From NCBI RefSeq assembly GCF_029814935.1, contig NZ_CP104582.1, forward strand, positions 186,001 through 250,000: a stretch of 64,000 nt of DNA. The letters are read 5' to 3'. This document shows, in pieces, positions 3,983 to 63,228 of this stretch. This DNA is from Pseudomonas sp. GD03919 (GTDB lineage Bacteria > Pseudomonadota > Gammaproteobacteria > Pseudomonadales > Pseudomonadaceae). The notes beneath the pieces were generated by a model. The model was not told the DNA's origin. It did no database searches and saw only the letters and a list, made by a program, of their open reading frames with translations. Each line of letters opens with the position of its first letter. Position 1 is the stretch's first letter. A program made the translations under genes and the position numbers.

Positions 3983-4080
3983 CACGGGCTTTGCCCGACT
4001 GTAAGCCCCGTAACACCCGAATGCTGTTCACTTAAGGTTGCACACGTTTGGCTCCCCTCTCCCATTTATTGGGGGCACGC

Positions 4081-4084
4081 CTAG
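4081..4084. repeat. IS target duplication, left (CTAG)
   Basis: CTAG directly abuts the left inverted repeat and is repeated at 5416-5419. It fits the YTAR preference of the IS5 subgroup. Confidence 0.8.
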
Positions 4085-5415
4085 CAGGCCGTTGAAAAAC
4101 TCGGCTTCAACTGCCCCAACCCGTCCGGTTTGGCGCTTTTTCAAGCGCTTTGGCCTAACGGAGTCCACACAAGGCCTGACTTCAGGCCTTTTTGACAGGT
4201 TTCAGCACCACGTTCACGCCTTTCGGCGTTTTTTGGGCGTAACTCGCCCTATACATGCGATCCTCGCCACCAACCCGACAGGCTACCCAGTCGGATCAGG
4301 TTGTAGACCGAGAAACCCAGCAATAACTGAGCACTCAGCTTGGCGCGACCGATCAGCTTGGTCTTGCGCAGGCCGCCAACCGTCTTCAGCCAGCCAAAAC
4401 CTTCTTCGATCCGCTTGCGGATCTTCTGGCTGGCGGCATACCCCGGATGCCGCGTGGTGCGCCCATCGATGGCGCTGCCCTTGCGCTTCTGCGCCACATG
4501 CGGTGTCACTTTCAGCTCGCGCGCCCTCTGCACGAAACGCTTCTGGTCGTAATTCTTGTCTGCACCTACCGTGCTGCCCGGCTTGGCCGTGCGCTCCAGC
4601 ATCTCCAGCGCCGCCTCTACCTCGGCACGTCCATTGAACTCGGTGCATTCCACATCCACGATCAGACCGTTGCGGTGCTCCATCATCGTGTGGGCCATGT
4701 GCGCCAGACGACTGGCATCGCCATTGCTCTTGCGCGCCAGCCGGGCCTCGGGATCGCTGGTCGATTGGTGGGTCGCGTTGCTGCGCTTCTCGCCCTTGAA
4801 GTCGGCATCGGGGTTGCGCGTGCCATCCTCCGGTGGGTCGCCGCCATCCTTCTTGATAAAGGACTTGTGCGAGGCCCAGGCGTCGATCAGCGTGCCATCG
4901 ACGCTGAAATGCTCGTTGCTGGCGTACTCGGACCATGCGGCCAGCGACTTGATGCGCTGGAAGAACAGCCGCGCTACATCCTGGTTGAACAAGCGGTCAC
5001 GGTTCTGGCTGAAGGTCGAGTGATCCCACATGCGCTCGTCCATCGACAAGCCGACGAACCAGCGAAACAGCAGGTTGAAATCAATCTGCTCGACCAACTG
5101 CCGCTCGGAGCGAATGGTGTAAATCACCTGCAGCAACGAGGCGCGCAGCAGCCGCTCCGGCGCAATCGAGGCCCGTCCCAGGGTGGAGTACAGCCCGTCG
5201 AAGTCCCGATCCATCGAAGCCAGAACGGTATCGACCAGGCCTCGCAGGGGACGCAGCGGGTGATCGTTCGGGATGCGCTGCTCCAGCGTCGTATAACTGA
5301 ACAGCTCGTTTTGTTTGAGGTCGAGTCCACGCATCGGCTTGGGCTGGCTTCGGCAGAAGAGGATGGCCGCCATTTTGCCAGAGCCACGCGGGCTCTGGCT
5401 TTTTTCAACGGCCTG
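4085..5415 (-). mobile_element. IS5-family insertion sequence, 1331 bp, apparently complete
   Basis: The ends are inverted repeats: the left begins CAGGCCGTTGAAAAACTCGG and the right, read inward, CAGGCCGTTGAAAAAAGCCA, so 15 bp match. Both sides carry the 4-bp duplication CTAG. One transposase gene fills most of it on the minus strand. The intact duplication shows a simple insertion rather than an IS-mediated deletion of the flanks. Confidence 0.9.
4249..5334 (-). CDS. IS5-family DDE transposase
   Basis: The 361-residue transposase catalyses cut-and-paste movement of its own IS. The N-terminal domain DHPLRPLRGLVDTVLASM (about residues 25-42) is of the DUF772 type, and FRWFVGLSMDERMWDHSTFS is near 90-110. 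The DDE triad appears as Asp in FSVDGTLIDAW, Asp in VGADKNYD and Glu in RIEEGFGWLK. The frame is intact. The ATG at 5334 gives MRGLDLKQNELF, the usual beginning of related transposases; an in-frame ATG at 5373 would add 13 residues. Expression probably depends on outside transcription, since no clear ribosome site is seen. Confidence 0.9.
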   Translation of the reverse strand: MRGLDLKQNELFSYTTLEQRIPNDHPLRPLRGLVDTVLASMDRDFDGLYSTLGRASIAPERLLRASLLQVIYTIRSERQLVEQIDFNLLFRWFVGLSMDERMWDHSTFSQNRDRLFNQDVARLFFQRIKSLAAWSEYASNEHFSVDGTLIDAWASHKSFIKKDGGDPPEDGTRNPDADFKGEKRSNATHQSTSDPEARLARKSNGDASRLAHMAHTMMEHRNGLIVDVECTEFNGRAEVEAALEMLERTAKPGSTVGADKNYDQKRFVQRARELKVTPHVAQKRKGSAIDGRTTRHPGYAASQKIRKRIEEGFGWLKTVGGLRKTKLIGRAKLSAQLLLGFSVYNLIRLGSLSGWWRGSHV

Positions 5416-5419
5416 CTAG
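5416..5419. repeat. IS target duplication, right (CTAG)
   Basis: This is the partner of 4081-4084 and follows the right inverted repeat directly. Confidence 0.8.
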
Positions 5420-5545
5420 TGGAGAGGGGCTGGGGGAGAGGGCCGAAATACCGTGAAACGGCCATTTACCCCTCTCCGAACATGGCTCGCCAGAAGGGCG
5501 AGGGGACTCATCGCAGGCAGTCGGCGCTTAACTGATCAGCATTAG

Positions 5546-5685
5546 CAGGCCGTTGAAAAACGTAGGCGAGGCAGCCAGTGCAAGGCAAAAACAGCCGAAA
5601 AAGCGCAGTTTACGTGCTGTAAATGAGCATTTTGAGGCTGTTTTTAACGCAGCAATGGCAACGTAGGTAGTTTTTCAACGGCCTG
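5546..5685. mobile_element. MITE sharing ends with the neighbouring IS (140 bp)
   Basis: The element starts CAGGCCGTTGAAAAACGTAG and ends with the inverted GTTTTTCAACGGCCTG, identical over about 16 bp to the IS5-family ends at 4085. It is flanked by TTAG at 5542-5545 and 5686-5689. It has no coding capacity; the inside is largely palindromic (ACAGCC and GGCTGT arms around GTTTACGTGCTGTAAATGAG). It is a non-autonomous derivative that the IS transposase could move. Confidence 0.88.
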
Positions 5686-9060: not shown

Positions 9061-9171
9061 TGCAAACCGGGCAGATAAGGTCGCCAGGGCGGCCTTGCGC
9101 AGCTCTCGTCCCTTCACTGGTGCTGCGCCGCGGGCGCCGCTTCTGCGCATCGCAGCGTCTGACAGGCATCA
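9061..9171. repeat. Degenerate variable-core element (copy E) after cysW
   Basis: ACCGGGCAGATAAGG and the inner CGGCCTT match the left part of the element at 60611, and CGCAGCGTCTGACAGGCATCA matches its right part with a short deletion. It ends on the stop codon of the convergent PAS-GGDEF-EAL gene. It is a decayed copy, less certain than the others. Confidence 0.45.
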
Positions 9172-60576: not shown

Positions 60577-60604
60577 GATGGGTAGAGCAACGCGAAACCC
60601 ATCA
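60577..60604 (+). repeat. 28-bp intergenic repeat, copy 2
   Basis: This is an exact copy of 396-423. It ends where the target duplication of the element at 60611 begins. Confidence 0.75.
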
Positions 60605-60610
60605 GATGGC

Positions 60611-60758
60611 CCAATACCGATCAGATAAGGTTGCAAAAGCGGCCTTTCGTAGGAGCCCCGCCCCGGGGCGAAGCTTTTCAATTGCGCATCGCCCTGGTTC
60701 GCGGCGGGGCGCCGTTCCTACACATTCGCAGCGTCGATGCTTAACTGACTGGCATTAA
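60611..60758. mobile_element. Variable-core palindromic element C (148 bp)
   Basis: Ends CCAATACCGATCAGATAAG and the inverted CTTAACTGACTGGCATTAA match the termini of elements A and D. The core holds a REP-like pair (CGTAGGAGCCCCGCCCCGGG and GGCGGGGCGCCGTTCCTACA). It is flanked by near-identical 9-mers TCAGATGGC (60602-60610) and TCAAATGGC (60759-60767), which look like a target duplication with one change. There is no coding capacity. Confidence 0.7.
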
Positions 60759-60804
60759 TCAAATGGCCCCGGGTTTCGCTGCGCTCAACCCAGGCTACAG
60801 GCTG

Positions 60805-61572
60805 TTATATGCCCTGCGGCGCCGGCTCCAGCTCGTTGCTGCTCATGCCTACTGCAAGGCCTGCGCGCAGCGCCTGTAGGGCGGCCTGGTAATAGGCTTT
60901 GCCCGCCTCCGACTGGGCGAATTCGACGAACTGCTCCAGCTCGGGGTCGCTCAGCTCGCGATAGACGTGCAGCAGGGTGTTGTCGAGATCCTGTTCGATC
61001 TGCGTCATCAGGCGCTCACGCTGGCCATTGAGCAGCCCTTGAGCCTGACTGCCGCCGAGCAGGCCGGGAATCATCTGGCTGAGGCTGTCGGCTGCCACGC
61101 CGGCCAGCGCCAGGCTGACTTCAGCCCCCGCTTCCTTGGCGGGAATGGCCTGGGCCAGGTGACGAATCAGTAGGCGGCGAGTGGCATCGGCATCGGTGCG
61201 TGGCAGGCCATTGGCGTATTTGGCCAATTGGTCGCTACGGGTGGCCAGCGTCTCGGCGGCAACGATCTTGCGGCCCAGCGCGGATTCGAAGAAGGCCAGC
61301 GCCGGCTGCGGGTCGGCCAGCTCCATGCGCAGGCTGTGCTGCGCGCGCTGGTCGATGGCGGCAGCAGCGAAGCGGCGATTGCTGTTATCCACCAGCGCCT
61401 GAAACACCGCCGGTGGCAGAGTGCTGCGGTAGCGCTGCTGAGCCGCGTCGAGCGCCTGGTTGAAATGTTCGCGCTGTTGCGGCCAGCCGGCGGCCTGATA
61501 CAGGCGCAGGTGGTCGTCTGCCAGGGCCGGCAAGGTCAGGCCAATCAGCAACAGGGCAAACAGAACGCGCAT
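60805..61572 (-). CDS. DUF2059 periplasmic protein
   Basis: The 255-residue precursor has a signal peptide ending PALA (residues 1-18). The DUF2059 pattern appears twice: once in the first half, and near the end as ELSDPELEQFVEFAQSEAGKAYYQAALQAL. The family is periplasmic and uncharacterised. AAGGAG precedes the ATG. It is divergent from the 2OG oxygenase gene, 112 bases away. Confidence 0.8.
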   Translation of the reverse strand: MRVLFALLLIGLTLPALADDHLRLYQAAGWPQQREHFNQALDAAQQRYRSTLPPAVFQALVDNSNRRFAAAAIDQRAQHSLRMELADPQPALAFFESALGRKIVAAETLATRSDQLAKYANGLPRTDADATRRLLIRHLAQAIPAKEAGAEVSLALAGVAADSLSQMIPGLLGGSQAQGLLNGQRERLMTQIEQDLDNTLLHVYRELSDPELEQFVEFAQSEAGKAYYQAALQALRAGLAVGMSSNELEPAPQGI

Positions 61573-61684
61573 CGAGAACTCCTTGGCAAACTTTCCTGGT
61601 CGGCCGCAGGTGTTGCGGCCGGTTATTTTCGGTGGCTGGTGGAGGCTTGTCGAGTCACGACATGCCACTGATACAATCGCCGCC

Positions 61685-62308
61685 ATGACCGAATCCAGCC
61701 TGCACGACCTCTTTTCCGGCCTTATCGACGACCTTGCCAGCCAGGGCTGGTCGCAACGGGCGTTGTTCGCCCCAGAAGTTCTGACCCGCGAACTGGCCGT
61801 CGAGTGTCGCACGCGTGCACAGAATGGCGAACTCAATGCCGCCGGCGTTGGGCGCGGGGGCGCGCAGCAGGTGCGGGAAGGGATTCGCGGCGATCGCATC
61901 CAATGGCTGGAACCTGGCCAGAGCCAAGCCTGTGACCAGTATCTGCAATTGATGGACGGTTTGCGTCAGGCACTCAATCAGGCGCTCTATCTGGGGCTCG
62001 AAGACTACGAATGCCACTTCGCCTGCTACGCACCGGGGGCCTTCTACCAGCGGCATCTCGATCGTTTTCGCGATGACGACCGCCGCACGGTGTCGGCGGT
62101 GTTCTATCTGAACGAGGACTGGCAGACCGAGCAGGGCGGGGCGTTGCGCCTGTATCTGGCCGATGGCCGGGAGCATGACGTACTGCCTCAGGCTGGAACA
62201 CTGGCGCTGTTTCTATCTTCCGAGATGCCTCACGAAGTGCTGCCGGCCACCCGCGAGCGACTGTCATTGACCGGCTGGTTCAGGCGTCGGGGTGGCGCGG
62301 TACTCTGA
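61685..62308 (+). CDS. 2OG-Fe(II) oxygenase
   Basis: The 207-residue oxygenase has a double-stranded beta helix. Iron ligands are His and Asp in AFYQRHLDRFRDDDRR and the distal His in SSEMPHEVLPATRERLSLTG, where the Arg of RERLSLTGWF should bind 2-oxoglutarate. YECHFACYAPG and SAVFYLNEDWQTEQGGALRL resemble the prolyl 4-hydroxylase branch. Substrate unknown; protein prolyl hydroxylation is a guess. It is followed 38 bases later by a DUF523 gene. Confidence 0.85.
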   Translation: MTESSLHDLFSGLIDDLASQGWSQRALFAPEVLTRELAVECRTRAQNGELNAAGVGRGGAQQVREGIRGDRIQWLEPGQSQACDQYLQLMDGLRQALNQALYLGLEDYECHFACYAPGAFYQRHLDRFRDDDRRTVSAVFYLNEDWQTEQGGALRLYLADGREHDVLPQAGTLALFLSSEMPHEVLPATRERLSLTGWFRRRGGAVL

Positions 62309-62346
62309 GGCCTGTGGGCTGTCTGGCGACAGTCATGGAGAGGGCG

Positions 62347-62838
62347 ATGCAGAAGATATTGGTCAGCCGCTGCCTGCTCGGGCATCGGGTGCGTTATGAC
62401 GGTGGTGCTCACGGACCCTTCGATCAGCTGCAGCGGTGGCTGGACGAAGGACGGGTGGTGGCGCTGTGTCCGGAGGTGGCGGGTGGGCTGCCGACGCCAC
62501 GTCCGCCTGCGGAAATTCGCGATGGACAGGGTGGTGCGGTGTTGGATGGTCGGCTGCCAGTACTGACGATCGAGGGCGAGGATGTCACGGCTGCGTTCGT
62601 CGACGGCGCCGAACAGGCGCTGGCGCTGGTGCGCGAGCACGACATCCGCCTGGCACTGCTGAAGGCGCGCAGCCCTTCGTGTGGCAATCTGGAAAACTAT
62701 GACGGCAGCTTCAGCGGTGTGCGTTTGCCGGGTGAGGGCGTGACCGCTGCCCTGCTGAAACGAGCTGGAGTGAAGGTGTTCAACGAAATGCAGTTGGACG
62801 AAGCGGCCGCCGAGTTGGCGCGGTTGGAGCGGGATTGA
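62347..62838 (+). CDS. DUF523 protein
   Basis: The 163-residue protein is a cytoplasmic DUF523 (YbbK-like) protein. Conserved features are the start MQKILVSRCLLGHRVRYDGG with Cys, CPEVAGGLPTPRPPAEI with Cys-Pro-Glu, the ALLKARSPSCG motif and FSGVRLPGEGVTAALLK. The conserved cysteines suggest metal or iron-sulfur binding; the role is unknown. GGAGAGGGCG lies before the ATG. It probably shares a transcript with the oxygenase gene. Confidence 0.85.
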   Translation: MQKILVSRCLLGHRVRYDGGAHGPFDQLQRWLDEGRVVALCPEVAGGLPTPRPPAEIRDGQGGAVLDGRLPVLTIEGEDVTAAFVDGAEQALALVREHDIRLALLKARSPSCGNLENYDGSFSGVRLPGEGVTAALLKRAGVKVFNEMQLDEAAAELARLERD

Positions 62839-62905
62839 GGTAGCCCGGATGCAATCCGGGGCACGGTGGTGCGCGCGGCGCACCCTACGGAATGAGAAAG
62901 GGAGG

Positions 62906-62914
62906 CCCGAAGCC
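62906..62914. repeat. Target duplication of element D, left
   Basis: CCCGAAGCC is repeated at 63075-63083. The last C is shared with the element end, so the duplication is 8 or 9 bp. Confidence 0.75.
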
Positions 62915-63074
62915 TAATGCTGATCAGATAAGTTCGTCACCACCCCCTCCTACTTGCAGTAGAGGGGGGCGCTTTTCGTAGGAGCCAGCTTGCTGGCGAT
63001 GCTTTTTATGGCGGATCGCCGGCAAGCCGGCTCCTACAAAGATCGAGTGCAACGGCTTAACTGACTGGCATTAG
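62914..63074. mobile_element. Variable-core palindromic element D (161 bp)
   Basis: Ends CTAATGCTGATCAGATAAG and the inverted CTTAACTGACTGGCATTAG are 19-bp imperfect inverted repeats. The core holds a hairpin (CCCCTCCTAC and GTAGAGGGG) and a complete REP pair (CGTAGGAGCCAGCTTGCTGG / CCGGCAAGCCGGCTCCTACA, 62977-63038). CCCGAAGC(C) flanks both sides. There is no coding capacity. Confidence 0.78.
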
Positions 63075-63109
63075 CCCGAAGCCTCCCTTTGTTCATTTCT
63101 GCATACCTT

Positions 63110-63228
63110 CGGGGCTCGCGAGCCAGAGCGAGACAAGGCGGGAGCGACCGAGGAGAGCGGAGTTTACGTCAGTAAATGAGCATCTCCGAGGTTGTTCCCA
63201 ACGCCGTATCGCCGACGCGCAGCCGCTC
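63110..63228. repeat. Palindromic element related to the MITE core
   Basis: GCGGAGTTTACGTCAGTAAA followed by TGAGCAT closely resembles the centre of the 5546 MITE (GCGCAGTTTACGTGCTGTAA then ATGAGCAT), and GAGGTTGTTCCCAACGCCGT resembles GAGGCTGTTTTTAACGCAGC. The MITE termini are not recognisable. It is a distant relative lying in the serA 3' untranslated region. Confidence 0.5.

Follow-up and report, generated by a model that had tools for sequence, protein, structure and literature searches.

Palindromic elements with IS4-subgroup ends in Pseudomonas sp. GD03919, probably mobilised by IS4-type transposase and nested in terminator hairpins

Elements at the locus

A stretch of 64,000 nucleotides of the Pseudomonas sp. 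GD03919 genome (assembly GCF_029814935.1, contig NZ_CP104582.1, positions 186,001 to 250,000 of the forward strand), called here the window, carries short palindromic elements with related inverted ends and unlike cores. Copies D and C each enclose an inverted pair of repetitive extragenic palindromic sequences (REPs), an arrangement known as a REPIN. Copy A has hairpins of another sequence and is interrupted by an unrelated insertion sequence (IS), and E is a decayed relative of C. The elements are miniature inverted-repeat transposable elements (MITEs): they lack a transposase, have ends in common with an autonomous IS of the same genome and generate target duplications. Their features are as follows, in window coordinates.

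62915..63073, forward: MITE copy D, 159 bp, REPIN core of type 2
62915..62932, forward: left terminal inverted repeat of D, TAATGCTGATCAGATAAG, 0 mismatches
63056..63073, reverse: right terminal inverted repeat of D, TAATGCCAGTCAGTTAAG, equal to both ends of the full-length IS of the host
62943..62970, unstranded: additional inner hairpin of D, CCCCCTC...GAGGGGG, read directly, boundaries approximate
62978..63037, unstranded: REPIN of D, two inverted GTAG-tagged REPs; the REP is also found outside MITEs
62905..62914, forward: left copy of the D target duplication, 10 bp, GCCCGAAGCC
63074..63083, forward: right copy of the D target duplication, 10 bp
62897..62904, forward: 5' arm, AAAGGGAG, of the terminator split by D
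63084..63090, forward: 3' arm and T run (TCCCTTT) of the same terminator; site empty in genome G012
60612..60757, forward: MITE copy C, 146 bp, REPIN core of type 1
60601..60611, forward: left copy of the C target duplication, 11 bp
60758..60768, forward: right copy of the C target duplication, 1 mismatch
60649..60721, unstranded: REPIN of C, pair of the GTAGGAGCCCCGCCCCGGGGC type
4019..5544, unstranded: MITE copy A, CCCCTCTCC type, interrupted by an unrelated IS
4085..5415, reverse: IS5/IS1182-like IS within A, transposase open reading frame (ORF) at 4249-5373, reverse
4081-4084 and 5416-5419: CTAG duplication of the IS within A
9061..9171 (approximate), forward: E, decayed relative of C

A sequence-only reading of the window had described direct repeats of 8-9 bp around C and D. 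Both elements do have target duplications, of greater length: 10 bp and exact for D (GCCCGAAGCC), 11 bp with one mismatch for C (ATCAGATGGCC/ATCAAATGGCC). Copy A, taken by that reading for a single long element, turned out to be a MITE of the CCCCTCTCC type cut by an IS5/IS1182-like IS of 1.33 kb with its CTAG duplication; no target duplication of A itself was visible on inspection. The proposal that E is a decayed copy was borne out: it is collinear with C at both ends and reaches a local score of 37, against a maximum of 29 among 2000 random pieces of the window from which E, C and D were excluded. The second REP of C is altered on its tag side, TTCCTAC (by eye).

Ends of the IS4 subgroup and a full-length partner

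Two variants of the ends matched three times each in the window with at most 3 mismatches (the match at 5527 counting under both), where 0.02 and 0.01 matches were expected. Over the whole host genome (G000, one contig of 4.66 Mb), TAATGCNNNTCAGNTAAG with at most 2 mismatches occurs at 115 places and the reversed control pattern at 13. The inverted termini noticed in the earlier reading are thus real and paired, and they needed trimming from 19 to 18 bp, the true start being TAATG and the leading C belonging to the flank.

These 18-bp inverted repeats are of the IS4-subgroup type, and their commonest form is letter-identical to one of the E. coli IS4 ends (TAATGCCAGTCAGTTAAG and TAATGCCGATCAGTTAAG). 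TAATGCCAGTCAGTTAAG constitutes both ends of the full-length IS of the host and the right ends of C and D, the remaining MITE ends being a few letters away from it. The subgroup end pattern -AATR--------WTW holds for the host IS and for D, and the left end of C departs from it once (CAATA). The earlier reading knew of no described family of this kind; as to the ends, such a family exists, namely the IS4 subgroup of the IS4 family.

A census of paired ends in G000, followed among the matches listed (a few weak ends fall outside, and A was added by hand), gave 43 MITEs and five full-length ISs. Paired termini are therefore found elsewhere in the genome, as is a full-length transposon with the same ends, two checks that the earlier reading had proposed. 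Seven additional loci have one good end only (L074, L076-L081). The full-length copies (L031-L035) are pairs of TAATGCCAGTCAGTTAAG spaced 1426-1427 bp. L031, the copy that was read, encodes a transposase of 452 residues with the domains PF01609 (DDE_Tnp_1) and PF13006 (Nterm_IS4), a score above the cut-off of the NCBIfam IS4 equivalog and 52% identity to the transposase of E. coli IS4. The Y(2)R(3)E(6)K motif is present in its ORF (YSQRWEIELGYREMK). In L035 the uninterrupted match covers residues 1-386 only. P. oleovorans and P. mendocina have the closest relatives of the host IS (98% between the proteins). The IS4 subgroup is defined by ends AATR...WTW, a duplication of 10-13 bp, a length of 1400-1650 bp and the YREK motif (PMC2266710), and the host ISs conform in size (1426-1427 bp) and duplication (9-10 bp).

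Among 149 genomes sampled from the genus, exact ends occur in 63, and a transposase at least 66% identical to that of the host occurs in 8, some of them with fragments only (G000, G016, G038, G046, G064, G082, G093, G123). Transposase matches at E below 1e-60, a search threshold that short remnants escape, are present in 12 of the 149.

Target duplications and empty sites

Duplications with at most 2 mismatches flank 41 of the 46 paired places of the host genome and are exact at 35. They are present at 36 of the 41 MITE places, with the tandem L072 counted once, and at all five ISs. Their length in the 41 sites is mostly 10 bp (28 sites), followed by 11 bp (7), 12 bp (5) and 9 bp (1), compared with 9-13 bp in related ISs of other genomes and 11-14 bp in E. 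coli IS4.

The site of D is empty in G012, a relative about 86% identical in the region, where the duplicated sequence stands once, with 9 of 10 letters, in an intact hairpin followed by T's. Likewise, the site of a MITE at 698349 of the host genome is empty in G064, where the 12-bp duplication is present once and exact, and in G008, where an intact terminator stands shortly past an apparent stop codon. G064 carries a 99% identical copy of the 698349 MITE at another place. The duplications and the empty sites uphold the transposition that the earlier reading had deduced from flanking repeats, and the empty sites it had proposed to look for in relatives do exist.

In G012 the orthologous site of the 698349 MITE (L264, G012:C1:3983050-3984900) has about 1.6 kb of inserted DNA in the loop of that terminator, lacking ends of the IS4 type and probably another IS; one terminator has thus received two different mobile elements. 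Copy C is present at the same site in G012, and 144 of its 146 positions are identical there (2 differ), in an aligned stretch with 86% identity overall, which suggests gene conversion or constraint.

Intrinsic terminators as the usual target

Rejoining the flanks over a single duplication copy yields, at most host sites, an A run, a GC-rich stem with the duplication at its centre and a T run, the make-up of an intrinsic terminator. In 27 of 41 host sites a perfect stem of 8 bp or longer has the duplication at its centre; among 5000 random positions of the host loci the share with such a stem is 0.14%. A terminator test that also demands a T or A run, with local positions as controls, was passed by 25 of 35 host MITE sites (control 2/286) and by 4 of the 5 host ISs (control 0/229); the interrupted MITE L036 failed it. 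Among related ISs of other genomes, 48 of 53 sites passed (control 103/20342), including copies of Pseudomonas, Pokkaliibacter, Idiomarina, Colwellia, Alteromonas, Thaumasiovibrio, Aliikangiella, Photobacterium and Shewanella. These 53 come from 80 loci; the other 27, some of them incomplete or at the edge of a contig, yielded no end pair with a duplication. L111 and L159 seem to be almost identical sites. E. coli IS4, for which the 12 loci fetched represent 9 distinct sites, passed at 7 of these (control 12/2389). Local controls of the test lie at 0.5-0.7%. IS4 is also said to have been reported long ago in the attenuator of E. coli pheST.

Gene context, judged with gene ends from a simple mechanical ORF finder at the 50 of the 53 related sites with enough flank, is tail-to-tail in 32 cases, tail-to-head in 12, within an ORF in 5 and head-to-head in 1. 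The centre of the site lies a median of 33 bp past the stop codon (n=44). Every one of the 53 related sites has A at position -6 outside the duplication; at -5 and -7 the share of A is 92%, and the opposite flank nearly mirrors this pattern (90-94%).

For the majority of host elements and of related ISs, therefore, the insertion cuts an intrinsic terminator in its loop and leaves the two arms, with the T run, on either side of the insert. The sequence-only reading had named no target, and the location of most host copies in terminator loops emerged only in this analysis.

Inward terminators and re-paired arms

Full-length relatives have an inward hairpin with T run within 150 bp of both ends in 49/49 cases (those of the 53 that are long enough for this test), against 1/98 interior pieces. 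The same holds for 8 of the 9 E. coli IS4 sites and for 5 of 6 in the host set, the sixth being L036, which is no full IS. In the host IS the left inward terminator is formed from the terminal repeat itself. Inward structures in other ISs are known as shields against outside transcription (PMC2965389).

Self-contained terminators within the MITEs were considered and discarded, one strand of 61 elements yielding a single case. In the predicted RNA fold of flank, MITE and flank together, the split terminator arms re-pair in 27 of 35 host MITEs, a count in which the tandem L072, whose right flank in the fold was part of its second copy, is scored as a miss.

Cores of the MITEs

The 43 host MITEs, counted as above, fall into three core types. 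Type 1 comprises 30 MITEs with a GTAGGAGCCCCGCC(C/T)CGGGGC REPIN, of which 29, C included, measure 143-152 bp and one is the interrupted L036. Type 2 comprises 6 MITEs of 157-159 bp, D included, with a GTAGGAGCCAGCTTGCTGGC REPIN and an extra hairpin. Type 3 comprises 7 MITEs with CCCCTCTCC hairpins, of 168-178 bp apart from the interrupted A. By eye, no common sequence is evident inside the ends of the three types, and a single family with diverged cores is not supported, common arms being absent. An origin of the MITEs as simple internal deletions of the present IS was set aside because IS and cores have only about 18-20 bp of end sequence in common (by eye).

Two loci deserve mention. L036 (G000:C1:1752450-1754440), initially a candidate full-length IS, is a type-1 MITE in which an IS110-family IS has inserted at the GTAG tag of a REP, which recalls IS1111 in the QMITE2 elements of Coxiella. 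L072 (G000:C1:4521727-4522251) is a tandem pair of D-type MITEs with a common 10-bp duplication between them.

Ends of the same kind surround different cores in nine other genomes of the genus, from which 40 regions were taken (one of 35 bases, one a damaged 1.15-kb IS copy) and 26 elements scored; chosen by exactly matching ends, this sample favours young copies. Cores with a GTAGGAGCGAGCTTGCTCGC REPIN occur in G143, G052 and G067, and in a lengthened form in G101; the others are GTGGGAGGCAGCTTGCTGGC (G018), GTGGGAGCAAAGCTTGCTCGC (G124), GTAGCAGCTGGCGAAGCC (G046), a longer core in G017 and the D type in G078. In L215, L217 and L218 an extra piece of about 14-15 bp (GGGGACGCCTAGTTC) sits in the loop of one or both core REPs, as if arms had been exchanged between copies.

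What nearly all of the distinct cores have in common is foldback. The fold is better than dinucleotide shuffles by more than 2 standard deviations for 21 of 21 distinct cores elsewhere and 13 of 20 in the host, against 1 of 11 interior IS pieces, and a foldback covers at least 60% of the core in 40/41. A pattern for inverted pairs of GTRG type hits 28 of the 35 scored host elements and 24 of the 26 scored from other genomes; it overlooks C, L044, L045 and L203, which hold such a pair by eye. C and D qualify as carriers of REPINs, with two inverted GTAG-tagged REPs and copies outside MITEs: of the 12 exact D-type REPs in G000, 6 lie within MITEs, and the C-type REP is present 199 times within 3 mismatches. 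A related REP pattern was present in all 14 genomes tested, 2 to 884 times. The C-type REP also forms regular arrays at G000:C1:883507-885913 and 1785780-1793706, with periods of about 183 and 102 bp.

The description of a non-autonomous transposon with conserved ends and exchangeable palindromic cores, REPINs among them, thus holds for the host and for nine other genomes. For its extension to an active capture of other repeats no direct sign was found: the fetched elements include neither an intermediate of a core change nor a precursor that has the C or D arms but lacks a REPIN, and only the outcome is seen.

Proposed mechanism and alternatives

The MITEs and the five full-length IS4-family copies of the host share their ends, duplication length and usual target. 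From the common ends and targets we infer that the MITEs are mobilised in trans by an IS4-type transposase, and we hold it to be very probable that their palindromic cargo is tolerated because it is nested in terminator hairpins. In the mechanism proposed, the transposase would act on the MITEs in trans and recognise a symmetric motif (AAA, GC-rich centre, TTT) to which terminators happen to conform. A full-length IS would compensate the broken terminator with its own two inward-facing terminators, which may also shield the transposase gene. A MITE would compensate as one long palindrome, the split stem re-forming around it with the U run in place, and unlike cores such as REPINs or CCCCTCTCC hairpins would be exchangeable as long as they fold back.

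Several observations weigh against this proposal or restrict its reach. Ten of the 35 host MITE sites (C among them) and one of the five host ISs are not terminator-like by the test, only 11 of 26 MITE sites of other genomes pass it, and both scored Vibrio sites fail. The test is lenient, since the E. coli site L244 passes although it lies in an IS21 transposase gene, and 3 of the 9 E. coli IS4 sites were called within an ORF. At some intragenic insertions the AAA...TTT motif stands without an evident hairpin, so the structure as such need not be recognised. Among 12 fetched MITEs of G143, G101, G052 and G067, 9 lie in a palindrome of REP-like hairpins, GGGCAAGCCC/GGGCTTGCCC, without A/T arms. 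A query for one further empty site matched the right flank only, in five genomes, and speaks neither for nor against movement. Many MITE populations look orphaned, given exact ends in 63 genomes against the transposase in 8, or are moved by an unfound transposase. Re-pairing of the arms in the predicted folds would partly follow from having inverted ends at all.

The MITEs in the GGGCAAGCCC palindrome are L213-L218, L220, L221 and L237, to which L200 of G017 can be added; one G052 MITE (L219) sits in a terminator. The target rule of this group seems to differ.

The link between target choice and termination may be incidental. A transposase that recognises a short symmetric sequence only (AAA, a GC-rich palindromic centre, TTT) would arrive at terminators with no adaptive tie to their function, and we find this rather probable. 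It agrees with the A at -6 in every related site and at -5 and -7 in 92%, with the motif retained at intragenic E. coli sites, and with the specificity for target arms already reported for IS4-subgroup elements (PMC2266710). We take the recognised object to be a symmetric sequence of this kind, which terminators provide. By itself, such recognition leaves the paired inward terminators of 49/49 ISs unexplained, and protection of the transposase gene would account for them.

Two other accounts concern how the cores arose. REPINs may have entered ordinary IS4 MITEs through REP-associated tyrosine transposases (RAYTs), with no action of the IS4 ends, an account that we regard as quite possible, slightly short of an even chance: the core REPs bear the GTAG tag at their outer borders (by eye), such REPs also stand outside MITEs in the same genome, and that genome has six matches to Y1 transposases, four of them strong (E about 1e-46). 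Against it, none of the elements fetched is a REPIN-free MITE with the same arms, and the CCCCTCTCC cores would have to come from elsewhere. Composite capture, in which two IS4 ends flanking a REPIN, for instance in both terminators of a tail-to-tail gene pair, mobilised the interval that later shrank, appears unlikely. In its favour, most related ISs lie between tail-to-tail genes, a setting rich in repeats (PMC2718517, PMC1525189), and the tandem pair L072 with its common duplication exists, while no intermediate with two elements around a REPIN was met, no systematic search having been made. A chance likeness of GC-rich palindromes, for which only the simple composition of the cores speaks, is practically negligible in view of the end counts, the duplications, the empty sites and the identical copies.

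Returning to IS4-mobilised MITEs nested in terminators, one may extend the idea, tentatively and with more doubt than belief, to IS4-type elements as specialised tenants of terminators. Their transposase would aim at the terminator motif, the IS would replace the terminator by two inward ones, and the MITEs would nest their palindrome so as to keep the host terminator working, with any foldback DNA, REPINs foremost, as cargo; IS4 and REPIN/RAYT systems would then spread as one chimera. The picture as a whole would help to explain the short repeats just past gene ends in Pseudomonas, give the IS4 group a target rule testable at single sites, offer REPINs a route to travel on the ends of another transposon and predict measurable effects on transcription termination at occupied genes.

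Neighbouring repeats in the window

The ends of the IS within A (CAGGCCGTTGAAAAA) also bound a short non-coding element at 5546-5685, directly to the right of A, probably a second MITE family. To the right of D, at 63100-63200, a repeat-like stretch, GTTTACGTCAGTAAATGAGCATC, resembles the inside of this short element.

Relation to known systems

Each single ingredient has been published: REPINs, MITEs of ISs, the ends and the target-arm specificity of the IS4 subgroup, ISs that insert at REPs (PMC1525189), and a GTAG REP inside a MITE (PMC5896051). Their joint occurrence, with REPIN-core MITEs bearing IS4 ends across the genus, terminators as a common IS target and paired inward terminators in every full-length relative tested, was not met in a limited search of the literature, and no priority is claimed. 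The closest known system is the IS4 subgroup itself (IS4, ISVvu2), which has the same ends, transposase domains and duplication length and strongly conserved target arms (PMC2266710), whereas the present elements are mostly non-coding. The words 'terminator' and 'MITE' are absent from the main text of that source.

QMITE2 of Coxiella burnetii is also a MITE, of 150-190 bp with duplications of 7-11 bp, located mainly at gene 3' ends and between genes and holding a GTAG REP into which IS1111 in turn inserts (PMC5896051). The likeness lies in these described features, and the same source calls the transposition origin of QMITE2 indeterminate. The R0, R2 and R6 repeats of P. fluorescens are likewise inverted repeats around variable cores with a tail-to-tail bias; in the account given by PMC2718517 they are not assigned to IS4 ends, and R0/R2 repeats match the repeats of two other ISs. 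The cores of C and D are REPINs of the kind described with RAYTs (PMC3116915, PMC3733652), whereas free REPINs lack IS4 ends. Among ISs that target REPs, namely ISRm22 of the IS4 family, ISPa11 and ISPpu9, ISRm22 inserts on the axis of the palindrome in a manner akin to the elements described here, and 3 of the 11 IS4 copies of a Shigella genome are at REPs (PMC1525189). In Pseudomonas sp. GD03919, by contrast, the host elements insert mainly into terminators and have the REP as cargo.

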